Assembly: GCA_902524845.1 (NCBI GenBank)
Contig: CABZEW010000016.1
Coordinates: forward strand, 1 to 43,784
Length of the DNA: 43,784 bases
Direction of reading: 5' to 3'
From: an uncultured Alphaproteobacteria bacterium
GTDB lineage: Bacteria; Pseudomonadota; Alphaproteobacteria; Rhodobacterales; Rhodobacteraceae
A program made the translations under genes and the position numbers. Under the pieces are notes generated by a model, which saw only the letters and a program-made list of their open reading frames with translations, ran no database searches and was not told the DNA's origin. The stretch's first letter is position 1. Each line of letters begins with the position of its first letter. This document shows positions 1 to 43,631 of this stretch, one piece after another.

Positions 1-399
1 ACAAAGGCTCGTGCCATTACAGAAACAACTCTTCAACAGAATCCAGATCTATGTGGCATCGTTGGCTTTTGGGATGGAATGGATATAGGTACAGGAGCGG
101 CAGTTAAGGAAGCCGGAATGCATGAAAAAGTATTTCTTGCTACTTCAGGCGGCGGTGGAAAGAACGGTTGCGACAACCTGAAAAATGACATTTTTGATGT
201 TTTTGTGAGCTACGATGTTCCGGGCCAGGCTAGAGACCTTTCTAATGTTTTGAAGAGTCTGCTGCAGTCAGGCAATAAACCGGGGAAAGCTGGAAAAGTC
301 TCATTATTCACACAGCTTCAGACACTTACTAAAGAAAACATGGCTTCGTACATGGGATCCGGTGCCTGTTGGACAGTTGAAAGTTTAGCTTCTAATTAA
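1..399 (+). CDS. Sugar-type ABC transporter periplasmic binding protein (C-terminal part, cut by window edge)
   Basis: The reading frame is open from base 1 to the TAA at 397-399, so only the last ~132 residues are present and the real start lies to the left. The visible part resembles the C-terminal lobe of type 1 periplasmic binding proteins of the RbsB class: a 'GIVGFWDGMDIGTGAAVKEAG' stretch like the 'ndxxAxGaxxAlkeaG' turn of this family, then a 'GGGGKNGCDNL' loop and a 'SYDVPGQARDL' segment. It should capture a sugar or related small solute in the periplasm and deliver it to the permease encoded just downstream. An internal ATG at 79 is not a credible start because the homology runs through it. 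Substrate unknown. Confidence 0.8.
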   Translation, partial: TKARAITETTLQQNPDLCGIVGFWDGMDIGTGAAVKEAGMHEKVFLATSGGGGKNGCDNLKNDIFDVFVSYDVPGQARDLSNVLKSLLQSGNKPGKAGKVSLFTQLQTLTKENMASYMGSGACWTVESLASN

Positions 400-457: not shown

Positions 458-2599
458 ATGAGTAATTTAAGAGATAAGTTTCTACAGATCAGGTACAATA
501 TTTTTCCTGATCATGTTTTGGGTGAGGTGCTTGCCAAAAGATGGGCTGACAACGCAATACCTTTTTTCACTCTTGCTATAGTGGCGATTGGTTTGCTTTT
601 GGTTCTGCCGGGGTTTTATACAAGTTACAACATAACTGAGTATGGTAGACAGTATGCTGAGCTTGGATTAGTGGTTCTTGGAATGACTATTGTTATGATG
701 GCTGGCGGGCTAGATCTTTCAGTTGGCTCAATGTTTGCCATTGCCAACCTTGTTGCACTATATTGTGTACACGTTCTGACTATAGATCCATTTTTAACTC
801 TACTATTGACAATCTCTATCGGTGCATTGTGTGGTGCATTTAATGGGTTTTTTATTGGTTTGATAGGAATGAGAGCTTTTTTGACAACTCTCGTTACTCT
901 GATAATTTTCCGCTCTGTTGTTGATCTATTGTTGTTAGAGTACGCTCTCGATATATCTTCTGTATTTCCGGACTCTGAGATCTGGGACTTAATCGGTGAC
1001 GGGGACTCCGTTGGTGTACCCTTTGTTTTAGTTGCAACTGCATTAATCTTTATTTTTTCTCATATTATTATTAGTAGAATGAAGCCTGGTTGGCATCTAA
1101 CAGCTGTTGGTGGCTCGAGAAGATCTGCTTACAATGCGGGTATAAAAGTTAAACAGACAATCTTTCTCTCATATGTAGTTTGTGGAATTTTATGTTCCAT
1201 TGCAGGTTTTATGTATGCTGCTCGAATGGCAAGTACTGGGGCTGATACTGGTAAAGGGCTTGAGTTGACTGTTTTAACAGCTGCGGTTCTAGGAGGAGTA
1301 AGTTTAGGTGGTGGAAGAGGTTCAGTCCCAAAAGCTATATTTGGTTCATTGATTGTCTTGCTATTACTGAACGGCCTTATTCAATTTGGAATACAAGGGG
1401 GCGCTATACAACTTGTTTTTGGAATAATTTTGCTTTTGACTATCTTGATTGATGTTAGATGGGTAAAGAATAGGTTCCGATTGCTAAACAAAGTGTACGT
1501 ATCCCCCTCATTTTTTAACTTACCTCGGTCCGCTGCTTTAATTAGTGAAGATAATGAAAAAGGTACGAAATCTCCTTATGTTTTCAATAATAAGCTAAAA
1601 GACGTTCGTGTTATAGGTTTGGGTAAGGTGGAAGGCCCAGAAGATGTACTTCTTGATGATGATGACAATCTATACGCAGGGAATAGGCATGGAGATATTG
1701 TTCGGTTCTATGGAAAAAATCATGAGAAGATGGAAGTTTTTGCACATGTTGGAGGTCATCCTTTAGGTCTGGCTTGGGATAAAGACTACAATCTGGTTAC
1801 ATGCGTACCCGACATGGGAGTGATATCTGTTTCTCAAAAGAGAGAAGTAACGAAAATTACAGATCAGACAAATAGAAGCTGGACCTCTGTTATCGATGAT
1901 AGGAGACTTAGTCTAGCAGATGACTTAGATATAGCCCCTGATGGGAAGATTTTTTTCTCGGAAGCAACCATTCGCTATAGACTAAAAGACTGGCCAATGG
2001 ATTGTGTTGAGAGTAGAGGCAATGGAAGAATTTGCTGTTATGACCCAAAAACCGGTAAAACAAATACGATAATCCATAATCTAAAATTTGCTAATGGCGT
2101 TTGTGTAGCTCAAGACTCACAGTCCATACTTTATGCTGAATCCTTCGGCTGCAGAGTGAATAGATACTGGTTCGATGGCCCAAATAAAGGAAAAACTAAG
2201 GTAATAATGGATGATATACCAGGATACCCGGATAACATAAATAGGGCTTCAGATGGCAACTATTGGCTTGCAATACTTGGAATGCGAGGACCCGCTCTTG
2301 ATTTAGCACTTACACTACCAGGGTTTAGAAAAAGAATGTCTAGGAGGATAAATACTTCTAATTGGCTTATGCCTAATATTAATACCGGGTGTGTAGTAAA
2401 AATTGATGAGAATGGAAACGTTCTTGATATCGTTTGGGATCTCGAGGCAAAAAACAACCCTATGGTAACATCAATGAAAGAGCATAAAGGATGCTTATAT
2501 TTAGGAGGTATCATGAATAATCGCATCAGCGAGTATAAAATTCCAGATGCGGATAGAACTTGGAGTGGTTATGCCGACTACTGGGCAAAATCAAAATGA
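458..2599 (+). CDS. ABC sugar permease (RbsC-like) fused to a PON/strictosidine-synthase-like beta-propeller
   Basis: 713 residues in two modules. Residues ~1-345 are a complete RbsC/BPD_transp_2-type permease: several hydrophobic segments, the 'MAGGLDLSVGS' motif, the cytoplasmic-loop sequence 'AVGGSRRSAYNAGI' and 'AAVLGGVSLGGGRGS'. After a short basic linker ('DVRWVKNRFRLLNK') residues ~385-705 form a beta-propeller of the SMP-30/paraoxonase/strictosidine-synthase-like group. Motifs like paraoxonase metal-site segments are present: 'GPED' (E395), 'ADDLDIAPDG', 'FANGV' (N546) and 'YPDN' (D592, N593). Family members are calcium-dependent lactonases or esterases. RbsC termini are cytoplasmic, so the propeller should face the cytoplasm and could act on the imported solute; that is inference. 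The start has AGGA just upstream. The stop overlaps the next ATG (ATGA), implying translational coupling. Confidence 0.85.
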   Translation: MSNLRDKFLQIRYNIFPDHVLGEVLAKRWADNAIPFFTLAIVAIGLLLVLPGFYTSYNITEYGRQYAELGLVVLGMTIVMMAGGLDLSVGSMFAIANLVALYCVHVLTIDPFLTLLLTISIGALCGAFNGFFIGLIGMRAFLTTLVTLIIFRSVVDLLLLEYALDISSVFPDSEIWDLIGDGDSVGVPFVLVATALIFIFSHIIISRMKPGWHLTAVGGSRRSAYNAGIKVKQTIFLSYVVCGILCSIAGFMYAARMASTGADTGKGLELTVLTAAVLGGVSLGGGRGSVPKAIFGSLIVLLLLNGLIQFGIQGGAIQLVFGIILLLTILIDVRWVKNRFRLLNKVYVSPSFFNLPRSAALISEDNEKGTKSPYVFNNKLKDVRVIGLGKVEGPEDVLLDDDDNLYAGNRHGDIVRFYGKNHEKMEVFAHVGGHPLGLAWDKDYNLVTCVPDMGVISVSQKREVTKITDQTNRSWTSVIDDRRLSLADDLDIAPDGKIFFSEATIRYRLKDWPMDCVESRGNGRICCYDPKTGKTNTIIHNLKFANGVCVAQDSQSILYAESFGCRVNRYWFDGPNKGKTKVIMDDIPGYPDNINRASDGNYWLAILGMRGPALDLALTLPGFRKRMSRRINTSNWLMPNINTGCVVKIDENGNVLDIVWDLEAKNNPMVTSMKEHKGCLYLGGIMNNRISEYKIPDADRTWSGYADYWAKSK

Positions 2600-3684
2600 T
2601 AATTGCCCCAATAAAAAATTTAATAGATTACTTTTTTGGCCGAGGCGAACATAGTGTCTTCGTTCCAGTAATGGATGGGCCTTTTAAGCCAAATGAGTTT
2701 TTGGACAATATTAAATTGTTTTCATCACTTGACTCAGTCGACAACCTTGAAAAATGTAAAACTGAAAATGTTTGTTCCTCTGGAAAAGACCTTTTCAGTT
2801 TCAAAGCTGGGGGGAAGCTTAGGAAAGTTCACGAATTTGATAGTGATATCACAGCTATAGCTTTTAATGAGGAAAGAGGCATTTTGGCAGTAGCGCTGGT
2901 TACAGGAGAAGTTTTCACTACGCCATTATCCAAAATAAAGTTAAACAAAGAATTTAGTGATGAATGCATAACATCAATGGCTTTTGTTGAGGACCTCTTG
3001 TTATACACCAAGGGCTCCACGAACTTTCAATCAAGCCAATGGAAGTATGACTTGATGTCTAAAGAACCAACGGGGTCGATATCAGTTAGTTCTCTGGATG
3101 GCAATAACCCTAAAGTTTTGGCATCAAATCTAGCTTGGCCAGCTGGGATTATTAACTTCATTGATGGTCAAATCTGTGTCTCCGAGGCTTGGGAACATAG
3201 GGTATGCTTTTATAAATTTAATAAGGATGAAATTACTCTAAGTTTATTACAACAAAGTTTAGATAAATTACCAGCATACCCTGGAAAACTCTTTTTTGAT
3301 TTAAGCAAGAATCAAATTTGGGTATCTTTCTTTGCTCCAAGAAACCAACTTGTAGAGTTCGTTCTTAAAGAGGATGAATACAGAAATAAAATGGTTGATC
3401 AGATTCCAGAAGATCTATGGATATCTCCAACTTATCGTAGCGGAAAATCCATGCAAGAACCTTTACAACATTCTGGAATAAAGACTATGGGTTACTTGAA
3501 ACCCTGGGCTCCGGCTTTTTCATATGGATTGTTTGTAAATTTCGATATTAACCTTAGGGCCCTGTCTAGTTTTCATAGTCGAACAAATGGAAGTTTTCAT
3601 GGAACTACCAGCCTTATTATAGATGAAAAAAATAATTTCTTCGTCTCCTCTAGGGGTGATAACAAGATAGGAATGTGGAAGTAA
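2596..3684 (+). CDS. Stand-alone SMP-30/strictosidine-synthase-like propeller, probably a degenerate paralogue
   Basis: 362 residues from an ATG that overlaps the upstream stop (ATGA). An in-frame ATG at 2560 would lie inside the previous gene and adds only out-of-frame sequence, so 2596 is preferred. Several segments align by eye with the propeller fused to the permease: 'LAWPAGI' against 'LKFANGV', 'PAYPGKLFF' against 'PGYPDNINR', and the last blade 'NFFVSSRGDNKIGMW' against 'GCLYLGGIMNNRISEY'. At the positions of the predicted metal ligands this protein has Ala instead of Asn, and Gly-Lys instead of Asp-Asn, and no GPE motif is seen. A non-catalytic binding or regulatory role is therefore possible. 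No signal peptide is evident. The next gene starts right after its stop. Family assignment is moderate; function unknown. Confidence 0.65.
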   Translation: MIIAPIKNLIDYFFGRGEHSVFVPVMDGPFKPNEFLDNIKLFSSLDSVDNLEKCKTENVCSSGKDLFSFKAGGKLRKVHEFDSDITAIAFNEERGILAVALVTGEVFTTPLSKIKLNKEFSDECITSMAFVEDLLLYTKGSTNFQSSQWKYDLMSKEPTGSISVSSLDGNNPKVLASNLAWPAGIINFIDGQICVSEAWEHRVCFYKFNKDEITLSLLQQSLDKLPAYPGKLFFDLSKNQIWVSFFAPRNQLVEFVLKEDEYRNKMVDQIPEDLWISPTYRSGKSMQEPLQHSGIKTMGYLKPWAPAFSYGLFVNFDINLRALSSFHSRTNGSFHGTTSLIIDEKNNFFVSSRGDNKIGMWK

Positions 3685-5187
3685 ATGAGTGAAGTTTTCA
3701 AAATAGTAAACGGCGCCAAAGATTTTCATGGGGTGCAAGCTATAAAGAATGTTAATTTCTCTTTGTTAAAAGGCGAAATACATTCTCTACTTGGAGAGAA
3801 TGGTGCTGGGAAATCTACCATGACTAAGGTGGTAGCGGGAGTATATCAATTATCATCTGGTGAGCTTTACTTTGAGTCAAAAAAAGCAACTTTCAACACC
3901 CCCTCGGAAGCGCTGAAAAATGGTATAGTAATGGTATTTCAAGAAAACAGCTTAGTACCCAACATGACAGTTTCGCAAAACTTGTACCTAGGAGCTGAAA
4001 AGTATTTTAATAGTCTAGCCAGGCTAAATATTAGAGCGAGTAGATTTTTACAATCACTTAACTTCAATGTAGACCCAAATCTGCTTGTGTCTCAATTAGG
4101 CGCAGCTCAAAAACAAATGGTTGAAATCGCTAGAGCAGTTCATCATAACGCCAAGGTCATAATCTTTGATGAACCAACAGCAACTCTCACACCAGAAGAA
4201 AAGCATCATTTTTTTAGTCTAATGCAAAGACTTAAGGTCCAAGGAGTTTCAATTGTTTTTATTTCCCATGCATTAGAAGAAGCACTCCAAAACTCTGATC
4301 GAATTACAGTCCTTAGAGATGGCGAAATAATAGTAACTGATTCAGCAAGTAAGTTCACTCGGGAACGTATAGTTAAGGCGATGATAGGTCGTGATTTATC
4401 TGACTCTGCTTATGCAGCATCAGGGGGCTCCAAGAGAAAATCTAGAGATAGAGGAGAAAAGGTTCTTGAAGTAGAGAATTTATCAATGGGCTCTATGGTT
4501 AAGAATTCTACTTTTTCGGCTTATTCTGGGCAAATAACCGGTGTATTTGGTTTGGTTGGTTCAGGGCGTACGGAGATGATGAAGGTAATATCTGGCGTAT
4601 ATAAAAGAAATATATTTCACGGAGGAAACATTTTACTGAACGGAAAATATGTTAGATACCTAGTTCCTAGAACAGCAGTTAATGATGGCATTATTTATGT
4701 AACCGAAGATAGAAAAAGTGAAGGTTTTTTTGAAAACTTTGGTATCAGTCAAAATATACAATTGGGCAAAATGGTAGCTGAAGATAAGCTTTGGAACACT
4801 GTAAACTTAACTGAGGCTAAAACCCTAGCAGAACACTGGATAAAGCGGCTAAGTATTAAAACGAAAGATATTAATTCACCGGTAGTTGAGCTTTCTGGGG
4901 GTAATCAGCAAAAGGTAGTGATTGCAAAAGGATTGGTTCAAAAACCTAAGGTCGTTATTTTTGATGAACCAACTCGCGGAGTTGACGTAGGTGCTATCAA
5001 GGAAATACATGATTTCATTAAGTCTTTAGCCGATGAGGGAATTACTGTTATCGTTGTTTCATCATATCTTCCTGAGGTAATGTCGATTTCAGATAGAATT
5101 TTAGTAGCTAGACTTGGCCAAATCGTTGAGGAGTTTGAAATAGAAGATGCATCAGAAGAGAAAATTATTTACGCAGCAGTACATTAA
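3685..5187 (+). CDS. Sugar ABC importer ATP-binding protein, two nucleotide-binding domains (RbsA/MglA/XylG-like)
   Basis: 500 residues, the usual size for the fused double ATPases of CUT2-type sugar importers. The first domain has a canonical Walker A (GENGAGKS, residues 37-44), a weak signature 'LGAAQKQMVEIARA' and Walker B 'VIIFDEPTATL'. The second has the degenerate Walker A 'GLVGSGRTE' normal for this class, a canonical signature 'LSGGNQQK' (403-409 region) and 'VVIFDEPTRGVD'. It should sit on the cytoplasmic face and energise the permease encoded two genes upstream. The ATG follows the TAA of the propeller gene with no gap, so the four transporter cistrons form one operon. Which sugar or sugar acid is carried cannot be told from the ATPase. 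Confidence 0.93.
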   Translation: MSEVFKIVNGAKDFHGVQAIKNVNFSLLKGEIHSLLGENGAGKSTMTKVVAGVYQLSSGELYFESKKATFNTPSEALKNGIVMVFQENSLVPNMTVSQNLYLGAEKYFNSLARLNIRASRFLQSLNFNVDPNLLVSQLGAAQKQMVEIARAVHHNAKVIIFDEPTATLTPEEKHHFFSLMQRLKVQGVSIVFISHALEEALQNSDRITVLRDGEIIVTDSASKFTRERIVKAMIGRDLSDSAYAASGGSKRKSRDRGEKVLEVENLSMGSMVKNSTFSAYSGQITGVFGLVGSGRTEMMKVISGVYKRNIFHGGNILLNGKYVRYLVPRTAVNDGIIYVTEDRKSEGFFENFGISQNIQLGKMVAEDKLWNTVNLTEAKTLAEHWIKRLSIKTKDINSPVVELSGGNQQKVVIAKGLVQKPKVVIFDEPTRGVDVGAIKEIHDFIKSLADEGITVIVVSSYLPEVMSISDRILVARLGQIVEEFEIEDASEEKIIYAAVH

Positions 5188-5208: not shown

Positions 5209-6429
5209 ATGACCTCAACTGACTCTAAAGGCTTACCTCTGGAAGGTGTTGTTGTCCTCGATGTGACACGAGTAGTCGCTGGTCCCTACAGCGCAATGAT
5301 CCTTGCAGATTTAGGTGCCACAGTTATAAAAATCGAAAACCCCTACGATCCTGATTATACAAGAAACTTTCCGCCATTTACAAAAACAGATAAGGAAAGC
5401 GCTTTTTTTGCTCAGTACAATAGAAATAAATTGGGGATGACCCTAGATCTAAAAAATGAAGAAGGTAAAAAAACTCTAAAGCAATTAGCTAAAAAGGCGG
5501 ATATTTTGATTGAGAACTTTCGACCTGGTGCGATGAACGGTCTAGGTTTAGGATACAAGGATCTTAAAAAAGAAAATTCTGCACTTGTGTACACCTCAAT
5601 AAGTGGTTTTGGACAAACTGGGCCCAAATCATCAAGACCAAGCTTTGATAATACTGGACAGGCTGAAAGTGGTCTTTGGTCAATGAATGGTTATCCTGAC
5701 AGACCTCCCGTGAGAGTTGGTACAATCATTGGAGATTTAGCAGCATGCTTTTTTGGCACGATAGGGACCATTGTGGCTCTAAGAGAGGCAGAAAAAACAG
5801 GAATAGGCCAATTGGTTGATGTAGCTCAGGTAGACTCCACTTTATGCCTTACCGAAAGCGCACTCCTCCGTTACTCTGTAGATGGAGTAGAAGCCACTCC
5901 CACGGGAAATGATCACGCTTTTGTCCGTCCATATGAGCAATTTTCCTGCAAGGATGGGTTTGTATTTTTTGGGGGATATAATGACAAGCAGTGGCGAGAA
6001 ACTCTAAAAGTTTTTAATTGTGAAGACTTATCTTCAGACCCTGAAATTGATACAATGCATAAGCGTTTCAATAAGGAAGTTTATGATAGACGAATAAAGC
6101 CTCTTATAAATGGATGGTTTTCTAGATATACAAAGGCTGAGCTTGAAACTATGCTCTCAGATAAAGTTCCCTTAAGCCCAATCAAGGGAATTGGGGAGGT
6201 TGTTGCCGATCCTCAATTAATAGAACGCAAAATGATTCTAGATATGCCTGTGCTCAACGAGGTAGTAAAAGTCTTTGGGAATCCCATAAAGCTATCAAAT
6301 ATGGCTGAAACCAGTATTAGAAGAGCACCAAAACTGGGAGAAGATAATATCGTTATATTAAGAGAAATGCTTGGATTTAATGACAACCAGATTAAAGACT
6401 TAAAGGAGTCTGGCGCGATATCAGAGTAA
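5209..6429 (+). CDS. CaiB/BaiF family III CoA-transferase
   Basis: 406 residues, full length for formyl-CoA-transferase-like enzymes, which move CoA between acyl-CoA thioesters and carboxylic acids through an enzyme-bound aspartyl intermediate. Family sequence is clear throughout: 'LDVTRVVAGPYSAMILADLGA', 'KIENPYDPD', 'NRNKLGMTLDL', 'LIENFRPGAMNGLGLGY' and 'YTSISGFGQTGP'. The Asp in 'SFDNTGQAESG' (about D147) fits the catalytic residue. It begins 21 bp after the ATPase gene in the same direction, so it may be the last cistron of the importer operon and activate an acid derived from the imported compound; this is inference. It ends 6 bp before the convergent GST-like gene. The acyl substrate cannot be predicted. 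Confidence 0.9.
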   Translation: MTSTDSKGLPLEGVVVLDVTRVVAGPYSAMILADLGATVIKIENPYDPDYTRNFPPFTKTDKESAFFAQYNRNKLGMTLDLKNEEGKKTLKQLAKKADILIENFRPGAMNGLGLGYKDLKKENSALVYTSISGFGQTGPKSSRPSFDNTGQAESGLWSMNGYPDRPPVRVGTIIGDLAACFFGTIGTIVALREAEKTGIGQLVDVAQVDSTLCLTESALLRYSVDGVEATPTGNDHAFVRPYEQFSCKDGFVFFGGYNDKQWRETLKVFNCEDLSSDPEIDTMHKRFNKEVYDRRIKPLINGWFSRYTKAELETMLSDKVPLSPIKGIGEVVADPQLIERKMILDMPVLNEVVKVFGNPIKLSNMAETSIRRAPKLGEDNIVILREMLGFNDNQIKDLKESGAISE

Positions 6430-31938: not shown

Positions 31939-33357
31939 ATGGAAAAGCAAAATAAACAATCAGAGCCTAGCTTTTATATAAATTTTGAGAAAGTTTTAGC
32001 GCGTAATATCGACAGCAATATAAGTTTGCTAAACTTTTTGAGGCATAATTGTAAATTTACTGGAACAAAAGAGGGATGCTCAGAGGGAGACTGTGGTGCA
32101 TGCTCTGTATTGATTTTTGATGAAACGGGATCCTTAGCACCAGTAAACTCTTGTATTTTAAAGGTGGGACAAATACTCGATAAGAATATAGTAACGATTG
32201 AAGGTGCTAGCAAATTAAGCTCTGCTAAACCTTTAATTGAAGCACTAAATTCCAAGGCGGCGTCACAATGTGGGTTTTGCACACCTGGCTTTGTAATGGC
32301 AGCTCTTGCGTTAAAAGAAAAACATAAGAACCCTTCTGAAAGCGTTATCCATGACACTATATCTGGAAATTTGTGTCGCTGTACCGGGTATAGACCAATT
32401 GTGGATGGGATCCTATCTCTCGAAGAAAAAATTAAGTTTCCAACCCCCATTAGTTGTGGAGGCTCAAAATTAAAAACCGCGGTTTTTGGAAATACAACAT
32501 ACATCTATCCAAAGTCTAAAAAAGAACTGATTGAATTTATATCAAAAGAAAAAAATTATACTATTTTATCTGGAGGCACAGACTGGAACCTCGAGGCAGA
32601 AGACTCGAATTTTAAAAAACAGAAAATTTTATTTCTGAACAATATTAAAGAAATGTCTACAATTAAGACCTTGGCTTCGTCTTTTGAAATAGGGGCTTGT
32701 GTTACACTATCAAAATTCGAAAAGTTATGTCGTGAATTTTTCCACCCCTTTTTGGACACAATTATCAGGTTTGGTTCTCCACAAATAAGAACAGCCGCAA
32801 CGGTTGGAGGAAATCTTGGGACATCGAGCCCCATTGGTGACCTAGCCCCCCTATTTTTAGTACTAGAAGCCAAATTGTCTCTACTCGGTCCAAGAGGAGA
32901 AAGAACTATTCCGATTAAAGATTTTTTTAAGGGCTACAGAAAAAACTCTCTTAAAAGAAATGAGCTTATAGTCAAGGTTATGGTACCAAAAACAAAAAAG
33001 GGAGATTCAATTTTTTCTTGGAAGCTATCAAAGAGGTATGATCAAGATATATCAACTTTATCGCTAGCAGCTAAATTAAAGATGGATAAAAACCAGGCTA
33101 TAGAAAATATTATTTTATCTGCAGGGGGCGTAGGACCCACGCCTTTGTTTTTGGATAAAACGGGCAAACTATTAAAGGATAGTAATCTACTCTTTAGCCA
33201 AAACGCTCTGCTAACTGCTTTAAGTCATGATATTTCCCCAATAAGCGATCTTAGAGGGACAGCAACATATCGATCGGCTGCAATGGTTGGATTGATAAGG
33301 AAAATGCAAAGATCAGTCATTAGTGGTGAAAAACAACATTCGATAATGAGTATTTAA
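31939..33357 (+). CDS. xdhA: Xanthine dehydrogenase small subunit (2Fe-2S and FAD)
   Basis: 472 residues. Residues 1-165 hold two [2Fe-2S] domains: plant-type cluster C47, C52, C55, C72, then C111, C114, C146, C148 in the helical domain ('CGFCTPGF', 'CRCTGYRPI'). Residues ~180-460 are the FAD domain with 'YTILSGGTDWNLE' and 'FGSPQIRTAATVGGNLGTSSPIGD'. It carries electrons from the molybdenum subunit to NAD+ while hypoxanthine or xanthine is oxidised to urate. It is the size of Rhodobacter XdhA. Its TAA overlaps the xdhB ATG (TAATG), so the subunits are translationally coupled. No xdhC Moco-insertion gene follows. Confidence 0.96.
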   Translation: MEKQNKQSEPSFYINFEKVLARNIDSNISLLNFLRHNCKFTGTKEGCSEGDCGACSVLIFDETGSLAPVNSCILKVGQILDKNIVTIEGASKLSSAKPLIEALNSKAASQCGFCTPGFVMAALALKEKHKNPSESVIHDTISGNLCRCTGYRPIVDGILSLEEKIKFPTPISCGGSKLKTAVFGNTTYIYPKSKKELIEFISKEKNYTILSGGTDWNLEAEDSNFKKQKILFLNNIKEMSTIKTLASSFEIGACVTLSKFEKLCREFFHPFLDTIIRFGSPQIRTAATVGGNLGTSSPIGDLAPLFLVLEAKLSLLGPRGERTIPIKDFFKGYRKNSLKRNELIVKVMVPKTKKGDSIFSWKLSKRYDQDISTLSLAAKLKMDKNQAIENIILSAGGVGPTPLFLDKTGKLLKDSNLLFSQNALLTALSHDISPISDLRGTATYRSAAMVGLIRKMQRSVISGEKQHSIMSI

Positions 33358-35681
33358 TGGCATTAGACAGCAAAAATAATATTTCAGTTGGAAAGTCTCA
33401 CTACCAAGACTCGTCTTTTAGACAACTTACAGGAAGAGCCGAGTATATAGACGATATTCCATTGTCAGAAAATGCACTGCATGGGGCTCTCATACTTTCA
33501 GAGATACCATATGGTATGATTATTTCTATAGATACCAAAAAAGCGAAAAAATTCGATCCAAGTATTACAGTTATTACGGCAAAAGACATACCAGGCAAGA
33601 ATGATATAGCACCTATTTTTGAAGATGAGCCCATTTTTGCAGAAAAAGAAGTGACTTATGTAGGCCAACCTATCGGGCTTATTGTTGCTTCTTCAATGGA
33701 GAAAGCAAGGGCAGCCGTAAATGAAGTAGAGATTGTTTACAAAAAAGATAAGACACCGATATTAGACTTGGATTTAGCATTCAAGAAAAAAAGCTTTTTT
33801 TTAAAGCCAATTCACTTTGAGAGGGGTAAGGCAAACGAACAGATTAAGCAGGCGCCCCATAAACTTAAGGGTTCATTTTCTATAGGTGGTCAAGATCACT
33901 TTTATTTGGAGACGCATATTGCTCTTGCCATTCCGCATGAAAACTCTGAGTTGACAATCTGGTCAAGCACACAACACCCAACTGAAGTCCAGCATGGAGT
34001 ATCCAATGTTTTAAATATTCCAGCGGCCAAGATTTCTAGCAAGGTCAGGAGGCTTGGTGGTGGCTTTGGAGGTAAAGAAAGCCAGTCAACAATATACGCC
34101 GCCATGGCAGCTCTAGGGGCATACATTTTGGATAAACCGGTTAAGCTTCGTCTTAATCGCAAAGATGACATGGCATCATCTGGGAAACGTCATGACTTTG
34201 AAGTGAAATATTCTGTAGGTTTCAACAAAAAAGGAAAAATTAAGGGATTAGATATAACATTGCTCAGCAATGCAGGTAATGTCTGCGACCTATCCGCTCC
34301 TGTAATGTCGAGAGCATTGACCCATTTAGATAATTGTTACTCTTTTAAAGATTTTACCGCACGCGGCTATATATGTAAAACGAACACCGTTTCTAACACG
34401 GCATTTAGAGGCTTTGGTGGCCCTCAAGGAATGCTTGCTATTGAGACTATCCTTGAAAGAATCTCTAGATTTCTCAGAATCGATTTAGATGCGCTTAGAC
34501 GTGAAAATTATTATTCCCAAAAAAATGGAATTAAAACACCCTATGGGCAAATAGTTAAAAATATTAAAATTGAAAAAATAATAAATGAGATGGAAACCTT
34601 CGCAGGTTTAAAAAAGAGAAAGATCCTCGTAGAAAAGTTTAATACGTCACAAATTAATAATAATCAGCCTTACAGAAAAGGAATTGCCTTCATGCCTGCC
34701 AAGTTTGGGATATCCTTTAATAAAGTATCCTTAAATCAAGCAGGTGCTTTAGTCCATGTATACACAGATGGTTCGGTGAGACTTAATCATGGTGGGACAG
34801 AGATGGGACAAGGACTATTTACAAAAGTGGCTCAGGTTGTCTCAGAATGTTTCAACATCCCTATCGACTATGTACATATTTCCGGGACGAATACCGATGA
34901 GGTCCCGAACACCTCAGCAACCGCCGCATCATCCGGCTCCGATATTAATGGTATGGCTGCGTGGAAAGCCGCTACTGTTATTAAACAGAGAATGCTGAAA
35001 CACGCTAGCAAAATTTTTCAAAAACCACCCTCATCGATCGAATTTAAGAACGGTCTAATACTGAGCGGAAATAAAAGCATGACGTTTAAGGAACTAGCGT
35101 TTTCCTGCTGGGAAAACCGAATATCTCTTTCATCAACAGGTTTTTATAAAACACCAAAAATATCTTGGGATCAGGAAAAGTTTAAGGGAAGCCCCTATTT
35201 TTATTTCACATGGGGGGCAGCCGTATCGGAAGCAATTATAGATATTGATACTGGAGAAAGTCGAATACTTAGAGCAGACATCGTTCAAGACTGTGGGAGC
35301 TCTCTCAACCCGCTAATTGATAGAGGGCAGATAGAAGGAGGTTTTATCCAGGGTATCGGATGGCTAACGTGTGAAGAACTATATTTTAATCCGGACGGCA
35401 AACTTTTAACTCTTGGCCCCTCAACATATAAAATACCTGGAAGTCGTGATGTACCGCCTGAATTTAATATTAAGCTATTAGAAAATACTCCTAATGAAGA
35501 GAAGACTATATTTAGATCTAAGGCAGTTGGTGAGCCACCTTTATTGCTATCTATTTCTCACTTTTTGGCTTTGAAAAATGCCATATCGATGGCTAGTGAA
35601 AAGTCAAATGCAGATTTATTAAATGCTCCCGCAACGCCGTCAAAAATTCTTGCCGCAGTTTATAATGATCACTCTATGTAA
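33357..35681 (+). CDS. xdhB: Xanthine dehydrogenase molybdenum-cofactor subunit
   Basis: 774 residues. Mo active-site residues of xanthine dehydrogenase are in place: E241 in 'GGGFGGKE', R351 in 'AFRGFGGPQG', and the catalytic base E726 in 'KAVGEPPLLL'. Other cofactor loops are 'GGTEMGQGLFTKVAQ', 'NTSATAASSGSDINGMAA' and 'GQIEGGFIQGIGWL'. The 'YRCSFR' loop of CO dehydrogenase is absent. It hydroxylates hypoxanthine and xanthine to urate, feeding PuuD. Its last 13 nt overlap the end of the convergent ureidoglycolate lyase gene. Confidence 0.96.
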   Translation: MALDSKNNISVGKSHYQDSSFRQLTGRAEYIDDIPLSENALHGALILSEIPYGMIISIDTKKAKKFDPSITVITAKDIPGKNDIAPIFEDEPIFAEKEVTYVGQPIGLIVASSMEKARAAVNEVEIVYKKDKTPILDLDLAFKKKSFFLKPIHFERGKANEQIKQAPHKLKGSFSIGGQDHFYLETHIALAIPHENSELTIWSSTQHPTEVQHGVSNVLNIPAAKISSKVRRLGGGFGGKESQSTIYAAMAALGAYILDKPVKLRLNRKDDMASSGKRHDFEVKYSVGFNKKGKIKGLDITLLSNAGNVCDLSAPVMSRALTHLDNCYSFKDFTARGYICKTNTVSNTAFRGFGGPQGMLAIETILERISRFLRIDLDALRRENYYSQKNGIKTPYGQIVKNIKIEKIINEMETFAGLKKRKILVEKFNTSQINNNQPYRKGIAFMPAKFGISFNKVSLNQAGALVHVYTDGSVRLNHGGTEMGQGLFTKVAQVVSECFNIPIDYVHISGTNTDEVPNTSATAASSGSDINGMAAWKAATVIKQRMLKHASKIFQKPPSSIEFKNGLILSGNKSMTFKELAFSCWENRISLSSTGFYKTPKISWDQEKFKGSPYFYFTWGAAVSEAIIDIDTGESRILRADIVQDCGSSLNPLIDRGQIEGGFIQGIGWLTCEELYFNPDGKLLTLGPSTYKIPGSRDVPPEFNIKLLENTPNEEKTIFRSKAVGEPPLLLSISHFLALKNAISMASEKSNADLLNAPATPSKILAAVYNDHSM

Positions 35682-36184
35682 ATCTTCTTATCATTGCTTT
35701 GAAAGAAATACTCTCTTAAATTTTCTCTGTTCTCATCCAATGCTGATGATCTATCGACAACCAAAAAATCTTGGACTGTATTAACGAGGAGTGGAAAATG
35801 CCAAACTTTCGGATTGTAATTTATACCTACATCACCTGGTACATCGAAACATTTGATTGAAGAAAGATCTGGAGATCCGTCATTATCATTTGCCACGACT
35901 ACTTGCCAATCAATTTTTTGTATTGGCATAAAAGCTTGAGAAGCTAGCGGGTGCATCTCCATATAATCAATTTTTATCGGTCTTTTTCTAGGAGTAGCGG
36001 AAAATATCGAAATAATGGGTTTGGCTTTTTTGTCCAGTACCTTTACCGACGTTACCTCATCAAATCTTTCACAATATCCATGATTTATCAAAAACTTATT
36101 ATTTTCCATTCCTTTTGAAATTATATCACCAAAAGCTTCGAATAATTTACTGCTTAAGTCTAGCTTTTCTAAATTTAAATCCAT
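35669..36184 (-). CDS. allA: Ureidoglycolate lyase
   Basis: 171 residues. It splits ureidoglycolate to glyoxylate and urea, the last step of this purine route. Family marks: 'FSATPRKRPIKIDYMEMHPLASQAFMPI', where the metal-site histidine is in 'EMHPL', and 'GDVGINYNPKVWHFPLL', with the second His in 'VWHFPLL'. Last gene of the minus-strand cluster uraH-puuD-puuE-alc-allA. It starts one base after the allantoicase stop, and its 3' end overlaps xdhB by 13 nt. No terminator is seen, so the transcripts of the two strands must run into each other. Confidence 0.94.
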   Translation of the reverse strand: MDLNLEKLDLSSKLFEAFGDIISKGMENNKFLINHGYCERFDEVTSVKVLDKKAKPIISIFSATPRKRPIKIDYMEMHPLASQAFMPIQKIDWQVVVANDNDGSPDLSSIKCFDVPGDVGINYNPKVWHFPLLVNTVQDFLVVDRSSALDENRENLREYFFQSNDKKIYIE

Positions 36185-36185
36185 T

Positions 36186-37181
36186 TTAGCTTACTGGTTG
36201 ACCAAATATTCGAAATCTCGAAACTCCCCCATCGGGATAGATATTTAATCTTATGTGGGAGACTATTTTTTCATGTAAAAAATCATTCTTTTCAAATTTA
36301 TGAATAGTGTCTGCTTTGCACTTTTTCTCGCCTAAAAATAATTCCCAATTGTTAGATGCTTCGAATGCTTTCATTTTGTCTTTTTCATTATTTAAATCAA
36401 TTGTTTGAATTGAAGCTCTATCCGGAAAATTACCTTTAAAGTGACAGGTATCTATCTCTACATTCGAAATAAGCCCAGGTGTTCCTAACTCAATGATTAT
36501 AAAATCATTTCCAGGGACACGTCTACGTCGAGTTTCCCACCCATCACCCATCGTAGTTCCTCTTCCTTCAGACAGCAGAGCGTTTACGTTGCCATAATGT
36601 GCGTTATTATACCCTACGATTTTTCCCCCATTTTTTAGAGCGGATAATTCAATTGCTTTAGACAGATCCTGAGAAAAGGGAATAAGATCACCAAAAAGTC
36701 TAAGCCGAGCTACGCCTCCATCTGGAAAAATATTTAATCTTACATAAGTTACATTTTCATTTTTTAAGAGCTGAAATTCATTTACGTGATCGCCTTTCAA
36801 AATCTGTTTTTCAAGAAGTGGGTGCCAGTCTAGAGATCCTGCTTCATAACTATGGTTAGATGAGAAATCTAGCGAGGCTGCAGGCGGATAGTTCCCTGTA
36901 AAGTGACTAGTGTCAATTATCACATCCTTTATAGAACACCTGCCTCCTAAGCCAATTATAGCCCAGTCGTTTCCCTCTACTCTTTTTCTACGGCTTTCCC
37001 AACCATCCATCCATTTCCCATGGTCATCATATTTATCATCTATGAAAATAGGATCCGTATCATTTAACATTCGATCACATTTTGCAAAAAAGTCGTCAGA
37101 CACATCAATGATTTTTGCCCCTGCTTTCGGTGATGCCAAGTTTACCTTTTTTGACATTACTAATTTGTCTTCATTTTTCAT
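36186..37181 (-). CDS. alc: Allantoicase
   Basis: 331 residues from the ATG at 37181, whose AAGG ribosome site lies 9 nt upstream. A TTG at 37211 would sit well inside the preceding gene. It hydrolyses allantoate to ureidoglycolate and urea. The two-fold repeat of the family is obvious: 'GKWMDGWESRRKRVEGNDW' with 'IDTSHFTGNYPP' in the first half, and 'TMGDGWETRRRRVPGND' with 'IDTCHFKGNFPDRASIQ' in the second. Each half ends in 'RLNIFPDGGVARLRLFG' or 'RLNIYPDGGVSRFRIFG'. It overlaps puuE by 11 nt and should be translationally coupled to it. Confidence 0.95.
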   Translation of the reverse strand: MKNEDKLVMSKKVNLASPKAGAKIIDVSDDFFAKCDRMLNDTDPIFIDDKYDDHGKWMDGWESRRKRVEGNDWAIIGLGGRCSIKDVIIDTSHFTGNYPPAASLDFSSNHSYEAGSLDWHPLLEKQILKGDHVNEFQLLKNENVTYVRLNIFPDGGVARLRLFGDLIPFSQDLSKAIELSALKNGGKIVGYNNAHYGNVNALLSEGRGTTMGDGWETRRRRVPGNDFIIIELGTPGLISNVEIDTCHFKGNFPDRASIQTIDLNNEKDKMKAFEASNNWELFLGEKKCKADTIHKFEKNDFLHEKIVSHIRLNIYPDGGVSRFRIFGQPVS

Positions 37182-38079
37182 GTGGTAGCACCTTTCTCCA
37201 ATGCCTCGCAATTTCTATTCTGGTTGTAAACCAGACATCGCTGAATGACTGAACGTAATCAACAAACTTTTTTAGCGCCGAAAACCTGCCCGGTTTTCCA
37301 ATAATACGGCAATGAAGTCCAATATTCATAATCTTAGAGCCCTCATGTCTTTCCTGATATAGGCAGTCAAAACTATCCTTGAGATAATTGAAAAAATGCT
37401 CGCTATTATGAAATCCTTGCGGTGTAAGAAATCTCATATCATTGGTATCAAGAGTATATGGAATAATTAGGTGCGGTTTTTTTGTAATATTAGACCAAAA
37501 TGGTAGGTCATCACTATAATCGTCTGAGTCGTAAAGAAAGCCCCCTTCTTCACAGACCAAATCCCTTGTATTCTCCGAAGTGCGACCCGTGTACCAACCC
37601 CTAGGTCTTTCTCCACAAATTCTTTTTTGTATCTCTATTGCTTTTTGCATGTGCTCTTTTTCAATAGCTTTGGGAACATCTTTGTAATTTATCCATCTTA
37701 GTCCGTGTGAACAAATCTCATGATTGTCCTTTAATATTTGATCTACAATTTTTGGATTTTTTTCCAAAGCCTGCGCTACTGCAAAAATTGTTATCGGGAT
37801 TTGTCTTTCTCTGAAGAGCTTTAAAATTCGCCAAACTCCAGCTCTTGTGCCGTATTCGTATAAACTTTCCATAGACATGTGTCGTTGACCAAAAAAAGGC
37901 TCAGCACCTATGATCTCTGAAAGGAAAGTCTCAGAATGCTTATCTCCATAAATGATTGAATTCTCACCACCTTCTTCTAAGTTTAAAACGAATTGAACCG
38001 CCAACTTTCTTCCCCCTGGCCATTCAAAGTGGGGTATTTCGCCATGGTAACCCTCTAGATCTCTAAGCTTTGTATCCAT
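37171..38079 (-). CDS. puuE: Allantoinase of the PuuE (polysaccharide-deacetylase-like) type
   Basis: 302 residues from the ATG at 38079. A TTG at 38088 overlapping the puuD stop (TTGA) is an alternative. PuuE opens the allantoin ring to allantoate and is unrelated to the classical zinc allantoinase. Diagnostic sequence: 'AVQFVLNLEEGGENSI', 'YEYGTRAGVWRILKLF', 'PITIFAVAQALEKNP', 'EICSHGLRWINY' (His motif) and 'PRGWYTGRTSENTRDL'. All are typical of the Pseudomonas and alphaproteobacterial enzyme. It sits between puuD and alc in one operon. It is cytosolic. Confidence 0.94.
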   Translation of the reverse strand: MDTKLRDLEGYHGEIPHFEWPGGRKLAVQFVLNLEEGGENSIIYGDKHSETFLSEIIGAEPFFGQRHMSMESLYEYGTRAGVWRILKLFRERQIPITIFAVAQALEKNPKIVDQILKDNHEICSHGLRWINYKDVPKAIEKEHMQKAIEIQKRICGERPRGWYTGRTSENTRDLVCEEGGFLYDSDDYSDDLPFWSNITKKPHLIIPYTLDTNDMRFLTPQGFHNSEHFFNYLKDSFDCLYQERHEGSKIMNIGLHCRIIGKPGRFSALKKFVDYVQSFSDVWFTTRIEIARHWRKVLPHEK

Positions 38080-38084
38080 TCTGC

Positions 38085-39320
38085 TCAATTCTCTTCTATT
38101 AATATTTCCTCAATCTTGTGAAAAAGTTTTGCGTACAATAACCGCTCTTCGTCTTCTAAAAAAGTAATATTGCCAGGTGGCATCGCCCTTGACGCCGCAA
38201 CCTGCTTATAAATAGTTTCGTAATTATTAATCAAGTGACTGAATTCGCTCAAATAAATCCCTTTAGGAGGATTTTCCATTCCTTCCCAAGATGGCTCCTT
38301 CATATGGCATGTGGAACATTTATAAGCCGTCACTTCCAATATATTATCTTTGAATTCTTGAGAAAATGATCCTTCGATTAGACTTAGTTTTTCTGGTGAT
38401 AATTGATCCAACCTTGGTTTGTCAACTTCAGACAACATTAGAGAACCCCACGATAGGATGACAATTGGAACTGCGACCCAATATGGAGTCTTGTTACCAG
38501 CATGTCTTTCATTAAAAAAATGTCTAACAAGCCCTCCTATCATAATGGTCAATACAATTATCACCCAAGAGTAGGATGTAGCGTAGGCAGTAGGATAATG
38601 ATTGCCAATCATTATAAATATTACAGGAAGTGTCAAATAGTTGTTATGAAGCGATCTCTGTTTTGCACGGATTCCAAATTCAGGGCTGGGTGTCTTTTTG
38701 GCGATTAATTGTGCTACAACTTTTTTCTGACCTGGAATAATTACCATCAGAACATTTGCTACCATTATCGTGCCAAGAGTTACTCCCATCTGCATAAACG
38801 CTCCTCTAGAACTCAGAATTGAATAGGATGCCCAAGACAAAAATGTAAAAAATACTAGAAGTGCAATTGATAATACGAAATCAGATTTTCCTACAAGTAA
38901 TCTACATATTAGATCATATATCACCCATCCAAATATAACGCCGCCTATTGATACCAAAACAGCAGCAGCTATAGATAGTTCTATTTTTTCATAATCAATG
39001 AGATATAATTCAGCGCCGAGATAGTAAACGAGTATGAATAGCGCTGCGCCCGTTATCCATGTCGCATAAGCCTCCCACTTAAACCAAGTTAAGTGATCAG
39101 GTAGGTGATTTGGAGCCACAAGATATTTTACTAAATTATAAAAACCACCTCCATGAACTTGCCAAGCTTCCCCATGTGCTTCCTTTGGTAAAGAGGTTGA
39201 TTTTCTTAAGCTCAAGTCGAGAGCAATAAAATAAAAGCTGGATCCTATCCATGCAATTCCAGCAATTACATGAAACCATCGAACCATAAATTCTATCCAC
39301 TCAAGGTAATCAAAATCCAT
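38085..39320 (-). CDS. puuD: Membrane urate oxidase PuuD with C-terminal cytochrome c domain
   Basis: 411 residues. About eight transmembrane helices (1-300) begin with 'RWFHVIAGIAWIGSSFYFIALD', containing the conserved His. Then 'KYLVAPNHLPDHLTWFKWEAY' and 'RSLHNNYLTLPVIFIM' follow. Residues ~310-411 are a cytochrome c domain with haem motif C335-S-T-C338-H339 and a distal Met in 'SRAMPPGN'. PuuD oxidises urate to 5-hydroxyisourate, and the haem should pass electrons to the respiratory chain instead of O2 to peroxide. The gene starts 2 nt after uraH, whose end provides the GGGGAAG ribosome site. Confidence 0.95.
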   Translation of the reverse strand: MDFDYLEWIEFMVRWFHVIAGIAWIGSSFYFIALDLSLRKSTSLPKEAHGEAWQVHGGGFYNLVKYLVAPNHLPDHLTWFKWEAYATWITGAALFILVYYLGAELYLIDYEKIELSIAAAVLVSIGGVIFGWVIYDLICRLLVGKSDFVLSIALLVFFTFLSWASYSILSSRGAFMQMGVTLGTIMVANVLMVIIPGQKKVVAQLIAKKTPSPEFGIRAKQRSLHNNYLTLPVIFIMIGNHYPTAYATSYSWVIIVLTIMIGGLVRHFFNERHAGNKTPYWVAVPIVILSWGSLMLSEVDKPRLDQLSPEKLSLIEGSFSQEFKDNILEVTAYKCSTCHMKEPSWEGMENPPKGIYLSEFSHLINNYETIYKQVAASRAMPPGNITFLEDEERLLYAKLFHKIEEILIEEN

Positions 39321-39322
39321 AC

Positions 39323-39676
39323 TTAACTTCCCCGATAGGTACTATAACCGAATTTGGAGAGTAAAAGAGGGACATGGTAATGTTGCTTTAGATCATTAAT
39401 TTGGAAGGAAATAGAAATGTTGTCAAAAAATAAATCCGTTACTTTCATTTTATGTTTTACACTCAAATATTTTCCAGCGTGGAAAACCATTTCATACCAT
39501 CCTACCTGAATATTATACTTATCAAATATAGGTTTATCTAACCTTCCATCAGAATTGGTTACGAAGTTAGCAATTAGCTCTTTCCCGGATAGCTGTGTAC
39601 TATAAAAGCTAATTTCAAATTCATCAGCCGGTTTCCCTTGCGTCAAATCTAAAACATGTGTGGTAAGCCCTGTCAT
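39323..39676 (-). CDS. uraH: 5-Hydroxyisourate hydrolase (transthyretin-like)
   Basis: 117 residues. It hydrolyses 5-hydroxyisourate to OHCU. The N-terminal 'LTTHVLDLTQGKPADE' contains the active-site His, 'TNSDGRLDKP' follows, and the C-terminus is 'YHVPLLLSKFGYSTYRGS', the family-defining Tyr-Arg-Gly-Ser end. The usual His in the 'HYHVPLL' region is kept. Tetrameric, no signal peptide, so cytosolic. It is the first gene of the minus-strand purine operon and divergent from uraD, its pathway partner, across a 79-bp gap containing a candidate promoter. Confidence 0.96.
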   Translation of the reverse strand: MTGLTTHVLDLTQGKPADEFEISFYSTQLSGKELIANFVTNSDGRLDKPIFDKYNIQVGWYEMVFHAGKYLSVKHKMKVTDLFFDNISISFQINDLKQHYHVPLLLSKFGYSTYRGS

Positions 39677-39699
39677 TTATTAAAAGCTCTTTTTTTTTG

Positions 39700-39727
39700 T
39701 TATTACATGGTAACTATAAAGAGACAA
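39700..39727 (-). promoter_or_regulatory. Candidate promoter of the uraH-puuD-puuE-alc-allA operon
   Basis: Read on the minus strand, TTGTCT (39722-39727) is a fair -35 and TAATAA (39700-39705) a fair -10, with a 16-nt spacer. The site lies 24 nt before the uraH ATG. The gap also has a run of 12 A (39726-39737). No operator palindrome is evident. Confidence 0.35.
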
Positions 39728-39755
39728 AAAAAAAAAACCAAAGAAAAGGTATGAA

Positions 39756-40235
39756 TTGGAGCGAGAAAAATTCATTCAGTATTATGGTAGTTTGTATGAA
39801 AATTCATCTCATATAGCGCTTGCGATATACGAGGCCTATAGTTGGGATAATTTGTCACCCTTGGAAATACTGAGCTTAATGAAGGATTACGTAAACACGA
39901 TGGATCGTGAATCCAAAATGAAACTTATTTTAGAACATCCAGAATTAGGTATTAAGAAGGGACAACAAAAAAACCTAACAGCCCATTCAAAGAGAGAGCA
40001 GAACCGAGCTGGTCTGGATAATCTTTCTGATAGTGAATATACTCTATTAAGGGGGTTAAATAAGGAATACACGAATAAATTCAAGTTTCCTTTTATTATT
40101 GCTGTATCAGGCCTAAACAAAGAAGAAGTTTTTAAAAACATTCGAGTGAGGCTGAAAAATAGTGTTGAAATAGAGTTCAATACCGCTGTGGAGGAGATAC
40201 ACAAAATTGCAGAAATAAGAATGAAAAATCTGTAG
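39756..40235 (+). CDS. uraD: OHCU decarboxylase
   Basis: 159 residues. It decarboxylates 2-oxo-4-hydroxy-4-carboxy-5-ureidoimidazoline to S-allantoin. Diagnostic sequence: 'HPELGIKKG' (catalytic His in 'HPELG'), 'SKREQNRAGLDNLS' and 'YTNKFKFPFIIAVSG'. The TTG start at 39756 has AAAAGG 6 nt upstream; the nearby ATG at 39751 is out of frame and leads to a short unrelated peptide. It is transcribed opposite to uraH, so steps 2 and 3 of urate breakdown are made from a shared intergenic region. It ends 5 bp before the convergent guaD stop. Confidence 0.95.
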   Translation: MEREKFIQYYGSLYENSSHIALAIYEAYSWDNLSPLEILSLMKDYVNTMDRESKMKLILEHPELGIKKGQQKNLTAHSKREQNRAGLDNLSDSEYTLLRGLNKEYTNKFKFPFIIAVSGLNKEEVFKNIRVRLKNSVEIEFNTAVEEIHKIAEIRMKNL

Positions 40236-40240
40236 TAAGT

Positions 40241-41527: not shown

Positions 41528-41547
41528 TCTTTAAAAAGTCTCCAAAA

Positions 41548-41573
41548 AAAAAGGCCCTTTATAGGGCCTTTTT
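41548..41573 (-). terminator. Strong Rho-independent terminator or attenuator between BMP gene and guaD
   Basis: Arms 41548-41558 and 41563-41573 form a perfect 11-bp stem around TTAT. Read on the minus strand, the GGCCCT stem is followed by a run of T. It stands about 18 nt after the binding-protein stop and 21 nt before guaD. It probably ends most importer transcripts while letting some read through into guaD. Confidence 0.85.
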
Positions 41574-41590
41574 CCACTATCGAATTTATC

Positions 41591-42673: not shown

Positions 42674-42698
42674 ATTTTCTCCATTTTTTAATTAAGTC

Positions 42699-43631
42699 TT
42701 ATGTTGTTTTCACAAACGATCTACCTAAACATCCCGGAGCTCCCCTATTCCCTCGGAATCGACTCATCGATATTACCACTAAAGCTAATATCGTTGCAAG
42801 ATATGGAGCCATAGATAATACAGCTATGTTTATATTTACTCCGATTGCCTGTAAATTGAGCTGAAGAATTGTTATACCGCCAAAAATATAGGCACCTATA
42901 AGTAATCTAAGAGGCCTCCATCCTGAAAAAACCACGAGAGCGAGGGCAATCCAGCCTGCTCCAGCCGTCATTCCCTCTGTCCATTGAGGAACTCTAACAA
43001 GTGATAGATATCCCCCTCCTACTCCAGCCATAGCTCCACCAAAAACAATAGCCAAAAACCTTATAGTTATTACTCCGTATCCCAAGGAATGTGCGACATC
43101 ATGATCCTCCCCTACTGATTTAAGGATGAGACCTGCTCTCGTATAACTCATAAAATACCAGATCGCTACCACAGATATTAACGACAGATAAACAATCAAG
43201 TCATGTTGAAAAAACATCGTTCCAAGTATCGGAACATCAGTAATTATTGGAATTGCAATCGTTGAAATTTGTGGTGATTTTATACCAGTATATGGGTGAC
43301 CTAACAGAGCTGCTATTCCTAGACCGAAAATAGTTAAAGCAAGGCCAGAGGCGACCTGATTAGCTTGCATTATCAAAATTATAAAAGCAAAGAGAAGAGA
43401 AAGTAATGCCCCTGCCACCGCTGCCGCTAGCATCCCTATATAGGCGGACCCAGTTTCCACTCCAACTATAAAACCAGAAACAGCACCTATTATCATCATA
43501 CCCTCAACACCAAGGTTCAAGACACCAGATTTTTCAACAACCAACTCGCCAAGAGCAGCTAATACAAGTGGTGTTGAGGCTACAATTAGACTAGCAACCA
43601 AAACAGCAAAATTAATTTCAGAAAAGCCCAT
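42699..43631 (-). CDS. BMP-associated ABC permease (second permease)
   Basis: 310 residues and about nine hydrophobic helices. 'TPLVLAALGELVVEKSGVLNLGVEGMM' is the signature of the NupQ/YufQ-type permease paired with BMP binding proteins, and 'GAGWIALALVVFSGWRPLRLLIGAYIFGG' is the conserved cytoplasmic-loop region. Together with the partial permease upstream it would form the heterodimeric channel for purine uptake. Its ATG follows the upstream TGA with no gap, and the binding-protein gene starts 25 bp after its stop, so the three genes are one operon. Confidence 0.93.
   Translation of the reverse strand: MGFSEINFAVLVASLIVASTPLVLAALGELVVEKSGVLNLGVEGMMIIGAVSGFIVGVETGSAYIGMLAAAVAGALLSLLFAFIILIMQANQVASGLALTIFGLGIAALLGHPYTGIKSPQISTIAIPIITDVPILGTMFFQHDLIVYLSLISVVAIWYFMSYTRAGLILKSVGEDHDVAHSLGYGVITIRFLAIVFGGAMAGVGGGYLSLVRVPQWTEGMTAGAGWIALALVVFSGWRPLRLLIGAYIFGGITILQLNLQAIGVNINIAVLSMAPYLATILALVVISMSRFRGNRGAPGCLGRSFVKTT

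Follow-up and report, generated by a model that had tools for sequence, protein, structure and literature searches.

ATP-binding cassette (ABC) importers normally deliver their cargo unchanged. Those of the CUT2/RbsABC type share a BPD_transp_2 permease, a double-domain ATPase, and a Peripla_BP_4 binding protein. The strictosidine-synthase-like (SSL) proteins of the N6P superfamily are relatives of paraoxonase, DFPase, and lactonases. In that superfamily four conserved ligands hold the catalytic metal, and they are retained by most SSL proteins though not by true strictosidine synthases (PMC4215206). The window analyzed here, by which we mean the whole stretch of 43,784 nucleotides, runs from base 1 of contig 16 of an uncultured Rhodobacteraceae genome (1.9 Mb, 74% complete) and holds a gene on its forward strand, at 458-2599, in which this known importer type and this known hydrolase superfamily are found in union: an RbsC-type permease continues into an SSL six-bladed propeller. 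The next gene (2596-3684) encodes a second, free propeller. For the whole, the explanation that we favor, with somewhat better than even confidence, is a five-part CUT2/RbsC-type importer carrying a fused cytoplasmic hydrolase that would open a lactone or ester to the acid. A first-pass annotation of this DNA had proposed a similar mechanism, which we find plausible and better supported than before, except in the role of the second propeller.

The fusion and its fixed cassette

The reading frame of the fusion opens with ATG, encodes 713 amino acids (aa), and contains no internal stops. Pfam places BPD_transp_2 at residues 66-328 (100.2 bits, cutoff 26.8), SSL_N at residues 376-417 (44.2 bits, cutoff 18.9), SGL at residues 432-608 (43.1 bits, cutoff 26.3), and Str_synth at residues 488-574 (66.6 bits, cutoff 25), and the propeller begins near residue 376. 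By Pfam limits and modeled helices the permease half spans residues 1-346 (458-1495), where the long last helix, 315-346, may continue as a stalk; by alignments and Foldseek the propeller half spans residues 372-713 (1571-2596). The structure model of the fusion (47 sequences, mean pLDDT 84.9, pTM 0.70) consists of a helical bundle, this long last helix, and the propeller. The best Foldseek match is TGW6 (8kg3, TMt 0.82), followed by strictosidine synthases (TMt ∼0.8) and then by the lactonase RPA3624, DFPase, and paraoxonase 1. A single-sequence search with the permease for a solved structure gave no match at E up to 1.

The permease-propeller architecture read by the first-pass annotation recurs in homologues, and no stop or frameshift separates the two modules in the window, in congeners, or in plasmids. 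A whole-protein search of 41 genomes, the window's own included, recovered the fusion intact in five other genomes of the same genus (83% identity) and in one genome of another genus of the family (49%), with two more at contig ends. Among plasmids, 15 records match 80% or more of the query, with identities of 45-52%. A frameshift or assembly artifact can be eliminated as the source of the fusion because the five same-genus genomes and plasmid records carry it whole. A profile scan of a collection of species genomes returned at least 572 stretches with a relative of the query, not all of which need be fusions; the best 80 were used, and every one of these loci has a single frame that spans at least query residues 12-700 (81 such frames). 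The gene order around the fusion is fixed as permease 1, binding protein, fusion, second propeller, and ATPase. Among the best 80 loci, wherever the flank was long enough, permease 1 was present in 74/74, the binding protein in 77/77, the second propeller in 73/73, and the ATPase in 72/72. We fetched 14 of the 15 plasmid records, two of which are unannotated; all 12 annotated ones show the order permease, binding protein, fusion, second propeller, and the ATPase is next in 11, the twelfth stretch stopping at the record's end inside the ATPase frame. The hosts of these annotated plasmids are Celeribacter, Salipiger, Sulfitobacter, Paracoccus, another Paracoccaceae strain, Rhizobium, Shinella, Paraburkholderia, and Pantoea. 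Many proteobacteria carry this fusion of importer and hydrolase-type module, a union that is widespread and seems to be obligate. That such fusions might exist elsewhere under generic names was a good guess: the loci are conserved, and databases label the family gluconolactonase, ABC permease, or ribose permease. A literature search found no description of such a fusion among openly licensed PMC papers. We also note one genome with five fusion places, three of them within ∼18 kb (G364, contig C25, 37348-55571), and a Dongia genome (L059) with two cassettes near each other.

The two halves were not found apart at comparable score. A propeller-half profile was run against 385 genomes of the class and 398 of the phylum, samples that overlap (G000, G061, and G090 are in both); fusion carriers number 10/385 and 11/398, counting the window's own genome and a 559-aa case. 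In the class sample, 32 places matched, of which 16 score at least 441 bits; 15 of these lie in frames of at least 710 aa and one in a 559-aa frame (G392 C256), and the remaining 16 score at most 240.2 bits in frames of 358-417 aa. The phylum sample gave 17 places of at least 529 bits, all in frames of at least 707 aa, and 21 places of at most 266.4 bits. With the permease half, 27 places in the 16 fusion-bearing genomes score at least 293 bits, all in frames of at least 707 aa; among the matches listed, the next scores 186.5, and some unfused permease-half matches sit in frames of more than 600 aa. A search for members of this subfamily with permease and propeller in separate genes turned up none at comparable score in the sampled genomes.

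The first-pass annotation had placed the hydrolase module in the cytoplasm, and the details of the permease half agree. The conserved loop at residues 203-239, which we take to contact the ATPase and to be cytoplasmic, carries a mean of 6.1 Lys plus Arg and 0 Asp plus Glu. Going by the model, the fused propeller should be cytoplasmic because four helices (231-257, 268-278, 290-309, and 315-346) follow this loop and because positive residues, the near-invariant R334, K337, and R339, end the last of them. Published RbsC topology agrees with a cytoplasmic C-terminus.

The hydrolase could be real and merely tethered for co-expression and membrane recruitment, with the substrate diffusing freely and no vectorial coupling; in favor of this, the linker, residues 340-380, has mixed model confidence. 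Co-expression alone, however, would not require that the fusion never be found broken in the sampled genomes, the one 559-aa frame aside, and we regard simple tethering as rather unlikely.

Metal-ligand residues kept in the fused propeller and lost in its free neighbor

Four positions of the fused propeller, E395, D488, N546, and D592, correspond to the metal ligands of the N6P superfamily. Across 102 fused proteins, Glu at 395 and Asn at 546 are invariant (102/102 each), position 488 is Asp in 96 and Asn in 6, and D592 is kept in 100. In a profile alignment D488, N546, and D592 fall on the invariant N104, N151, and D203 of 12 gluconolactonase-type proteins. The titles of DFPase mutant structure entries name E21, N120, N175, and D229, and the propeller lactonase of DrSOD has Glu, Asn, Asn, and Asp as ligands (PMC12362111). 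The fused propeller therefore shows the Glu-Asn/Asp-Asn-Asp ligand pattern on a fold that is six-bladed by model and Foldseek, and its retained ligand residues separate it from the true, metal-independent strictosidine synthases, in which they are lost. Judged by these residues it looks like a metal-dependent hydrolase of the N6P superfamily, SSL subgroup, so the hydrolase-type assignment of the first-pass annotation stands. The propeller half is strongly conserved (mean column identity 72%); synonymous change is saturated for the fusion and for the second propeller, so that no dN/dS could be obtained.

The second propeller gives a different picture. Its ATG at 2596 overlaps the stop of the fusion (ATGA), and its 362 residues carry no signal segment. 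Its Str_synth match is weak (22.4 bits against the Pfam cutoff of 25; 25.4 bits in the genome search), and profile alignment confirms the similarity that had been noticed by eye, since the two propellers are homologous (hhalign 99.9%, E 3.8e-34). For the position counts we used 92 second propellers, being copies that span query residues 16-340 (71 such frames in the best 80 loci), with the broken copy of G024 left out. The position of N546 is Asn in 9/92 and that of D592 is Asp in 0/92 (Gly 38, Ser 32, Ala 21, Cys 1), and the residue after the latter is Arg or Lys in 87/92. In the window's copy, profile alignments pair E395 with Asp, D488 with Thr, N546 with Ala, and D592 with Gly, so the metal-ligand set of an N6P hydrolase is missing. 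None of the 92 second propellers has a strongly hydrophobic N-terminal stretch (mean above 2.2 over 9 residues, within 40 residues of the start), versus 77/94 binding proteins. The second propeller diverges rapidly: between the window and a congener it is 50% identical, whereas the fusion reaches 83.5%, the ATPase 89%, and the CoA-transferase encoded downstream 95%. A second hydrolase can be eliminated by the ligand loss, and the earlier reading of this gene as one did not survive. Because three of the four metal ligands are lost, the second propeller is probably noncatalytic, to judge from its residues a degenerate paralogue that would serve as a partner.

A degenerate paralogue kept in 73/73 loci would also suit a structural or regulatory assembly in which the fused propeller senses ligand or works as a gate, binding the imported molecule or Ca2+ and regulating the transporter with no hydrolysis, the second propeller being its partner; propellers are common binding platforms. 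We consider this improbable, since ligands of the hydrolase type are near-invariant in the 102 fused proteins and lost in the paralogue, and since the CoA- and acid-related genes described below fit a hydrolysis product. These genes bear on what the importer with its fused hydrolase would carry.

Neighboring genes and candidate substrates

The window begins within the 3′ end of a sugar-type binding-protein gene (Peripla_BP_4, 1-399, forward strand), and its 5′ part, like permease 1, falls outside the contig, as the gene order in same-genus genomes indicates: there permease 1 and the binding protein precede the order seen in the window. After the second propeller, on the same strand, come an RbsA/XylG-like ATPase with two ABC_tran stretches (3685-5187; Pfam, curated models) and a family-III CoA-transferase (5209-6429; Pfam, orthologue search) of a clade linked to degradative HMG-CoA reductase. 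The components of a CUT2/RbsC-type importer sit in one operon: a permease with BPD_transp_2, an ATPase with tandem ABC domains, and a binding protein of the sugar type. In 3/4 same-genus stretches a 143-aa gene precedes permease 1; the one checked has no Pfam match. Contrary to the first-pass annotation, the CoA-transferase need not end the operon, because in three same-genus stretches (L197-L199) two more same-strand genes follow it; the downstream genes checked in same-genus stretches are PhyH and Gfo/Idh (Pfam).

For comparison we picked, as controls, 40 ordinary RbsC-type permease loci in 12 of the 16 fusion-bearing genomes; we set them against the 80 best loci, 14 plasmid loci, and 20 fused places from those 16 genomes, with neighboring genes called by a codon-model caller. 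CoA-activation probes (AMP-forming ligase, family-III CoA-transferase, and HMG-CoA reductase) matched at 43/80 best loci, 6/20 sampled-genome loci, 3/14 plasmid loci, and 0/40 controls (Fisher p = 7.7e-4 for 6/20 vs 0/40), which supports the acid product proposed earlier, with probes biased toward fused loci. Sugar-type probes matched at 1/80, 0/20, and 2/14 fused loci versus 5/40 controls. A blind Pfam tally covered 110 of 135 fused-locus neighbor genes and 110 of 296 control genes, with 25 families listed for each. The fused loci gave carboxymuconolactone decarboxylase (6), AMP-binding (4), aldehyde dehydrogenase (3), SGL (3), HMGL (2), epimerase (3), and, among other transporters, BPD_transp_1 (8); the controls gave aldolase II (4), AP_endonuc_2 (3), DeoR (3), FGGY (2), and DeoC (2). 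Carboxymuconolactone decarboxylase, AMP-binding, aldehyde dehydrogenase, SGL, and HMGL are not among the 25 families listed for controls, where the lowest count is 2. Neighbor type also follows a quick tree of the fusion (12 changes vs a shuffled mean of 24; 0/200 shuffles), with 58 of 102 tree rows labeled and near-copies inflating the fit. The neighboring genes thus argue against ordinary sugars as cargo, and a sugar lactone, the substrate class that the first-pass annotation proposed to assay, is less likely given the few sugar-type matches and the sugar-catabolism families in the control tally. That the propeller is an irrelevant or decaying passenger on an ordinary sugar importer is hardly credible, for although the best curated-model matches of permease and ATPase are sugar importers (both below the curated cut-offs), the conservation of the propeller half, the fixed cassette, and the sugar-probe counts all stand against it.

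Some gene arrangements near the cassette are noted for their own sake. A gene of the carboxymuconolactone decarboxylase family (106-137 aa) lies near it in several loci (L041, L043, L051, and L044). In L067 (11678-14362) an AMP-forming acyl-CoA ligase and an enoyl-CoA hydratase share one 895-aa gene; L176 has a similar gene of 885 aa, and in L069 the two enzymes are separate genes.

One subtype permits a specific prediction. In five loci (L056, L060, L076, L084, and L090) HMG-CoA reductase, CoA-transferase, and crotonase genes run before permease 1 and an HMG-CoA lyase gene is in the locus; a sixth (L042) has, of these subtype genes, only the reductase. The L060 reductase scores 427.6 bits against the degradative model TIGR00532 (cutoff 260), and the L056 lyase scores 397.8 bits against its own model (cutoff 246). 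Drp35 of S. aureus opens mevalonolactone at 478 μmol/min/mg, a rate at least 100-fold above those for the other lactones assayed (PMC6052127). Because of these reductase/lyase operons and the Drp35 precedent, we suggest by analogy that the substrate of the HMG-CoA reductase subtype is probably mevalonolactone. The match of Drp35 itself (2dg0, 2dso) to the fused propeller is marginal (E 0.81-0.85; 0.08-0.10 by profile). The window's CoA-transferase is 95% identical to that of the congener L053, 52-61% to those of the five reductase operons, and at most 36% to other matches near fusions. Besides it, 398 genomes contain 4 orthologues (E up to 1e-110), all 4 clustered with HMG-CoA reductase; the fused importer is there in one (L179) and absent from three. 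Against the congener L196, pS is 0.35 for the CoA-transferase and 0.70 for the adjoining ATPase, with the fusion saturated; the difference narrows when L197 is the comparison (0.55 and 0.73). The lower divergence of the CoA-transferase gene suggests its recombination or transfer.

Farther along the window, at 31939-43631, we recognized by eye a purine/urate catabolic cluster, of which the last permease alone was matched by search. Its genes presumably encode a xanthine-dehydrogenase-like pair, ureidoglycolate lyase, allantoicase, a deacetylase, membrane urate oxidase-like, transthyretin-like, and guanine-deaminase-like proteins, and a BMP-type transporter.

Proposed mechanism and comparison with known systems

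In the mechanism that we propose, the binding protein would hand over a small lactone or ester, which two unlike permeases and the double ATPase would carry inward. One of the permeases would bear on its cytoplasmic end a metal-dependent N6P hydrolase, and this fused propeller would hydrolyze the substrate at or near the channel exit, trapping the cargo as the (hydroxy) acid. Local enzymes would then oxidize the acid or load it onto CoA, and the free second propeller probably assists the fused one in a structural or regulatory role. The substrate would vary by clade, mevalonolactone being probable where HMG-CoA reductase, CoA-transferase, crotonase, and HMG-CoA lyase are present. A bolder version, in which import and ring-opening form one group-translocation-like step and the dead paralogue is a docking partner, has in our estimate somewhat less than an even chance.

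Several points weigh against this proposal. Catalysis, a lactone substrate, tight coupling, and the partner role are what we infer from the patterns above. At the metal site, the gluconolactonase alignment block does not quite reach E395, whose placement rests on a low-scoring alignment to the plant SSL 8kg3, and D592 is replaced by Ala and Ser in two Acidisoma members (L065 and L091), possibly inactive fused propellers by this reading of their residues. The model gives a short eighth transmembrane helix (268-278), and the helix count behind the topology is less secure for it; the relative placing of the two domains in the model is provisional. In G024, a one-contig genome, the second propeller lies in two overlapping frames of 196 and 172 aa (L200, 11950-13001); the cassette may tolerate its loss, or the split may be a sequence error. 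The CoA-activation enrichment is overstated because fused loci supplied its probes and because one genome or more apparently stands in two case sets; no CoA-activation gene was found at 37/80, 14/20, and 11/14 fused loci. In the blind tally the counts are small (4/110 for AMP-binding), and the 25 families listed for fused loci include neither CoA_transf_3 nor ECH_1. Finally, HMG-CoA reductase was found in 0/22 genomes of the window's genus, its own included (only 2 are at least 90% complete), in a search with no positive control inside it whose query does match other genomes. The degradative reductase that would mark a mevalonate catabolic operon is thus missing from the genus genomes searched, most of them incomplete, which weakens mevalonate as the window's own substrate and makes it doubtful there. 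A related compound, a branched C6 acid or lactone such as one of HMG type or an unsaturated one, is the probable cargo of the window's operon.

The fusion, kept together with a probably inactive paralogue, makes it directly testable whether an ABC importer can modify its substrate at the exit, and a generically named family acquires a specific substrate prediction, mevalonolactone in the HMG-CoA reductase clade. The bolder version above, if true, would also explain how soil and marine bacteria take up mevalonolactone or branched lactones related to it.

Set beside CUT2/RbsABC importers, the system differs in that its two permeases are unlike and one of them bears a hydrolase-type propeller at its C-terminus, in its additional free propeller, and in acid- and CoA-related genes nearby more often than at control loci. 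With the SSL subgroup of N6P it shares the six-bladed propeller and the metal-ligand pattern; here, however, the propeller is joined to a transporter and, unlike true strictosidine synthase, keeps the metal-ligand residues. Drp35 is likewise a propeller lactonase, of marginal sequence match, with no transporter fusion and reported in a biosynthetic context (PMC6052127). A parallel in architecture is DrSOD of Deinococcus, in which a Ca-binding propeller lactonase is also found naturally fused to an unrelated partner; that partner is a Cu/Zn-SOD with no part in transport, and the fusion is reported in Deinococcus only (PMC12362111), whereas the partner here is a permease.

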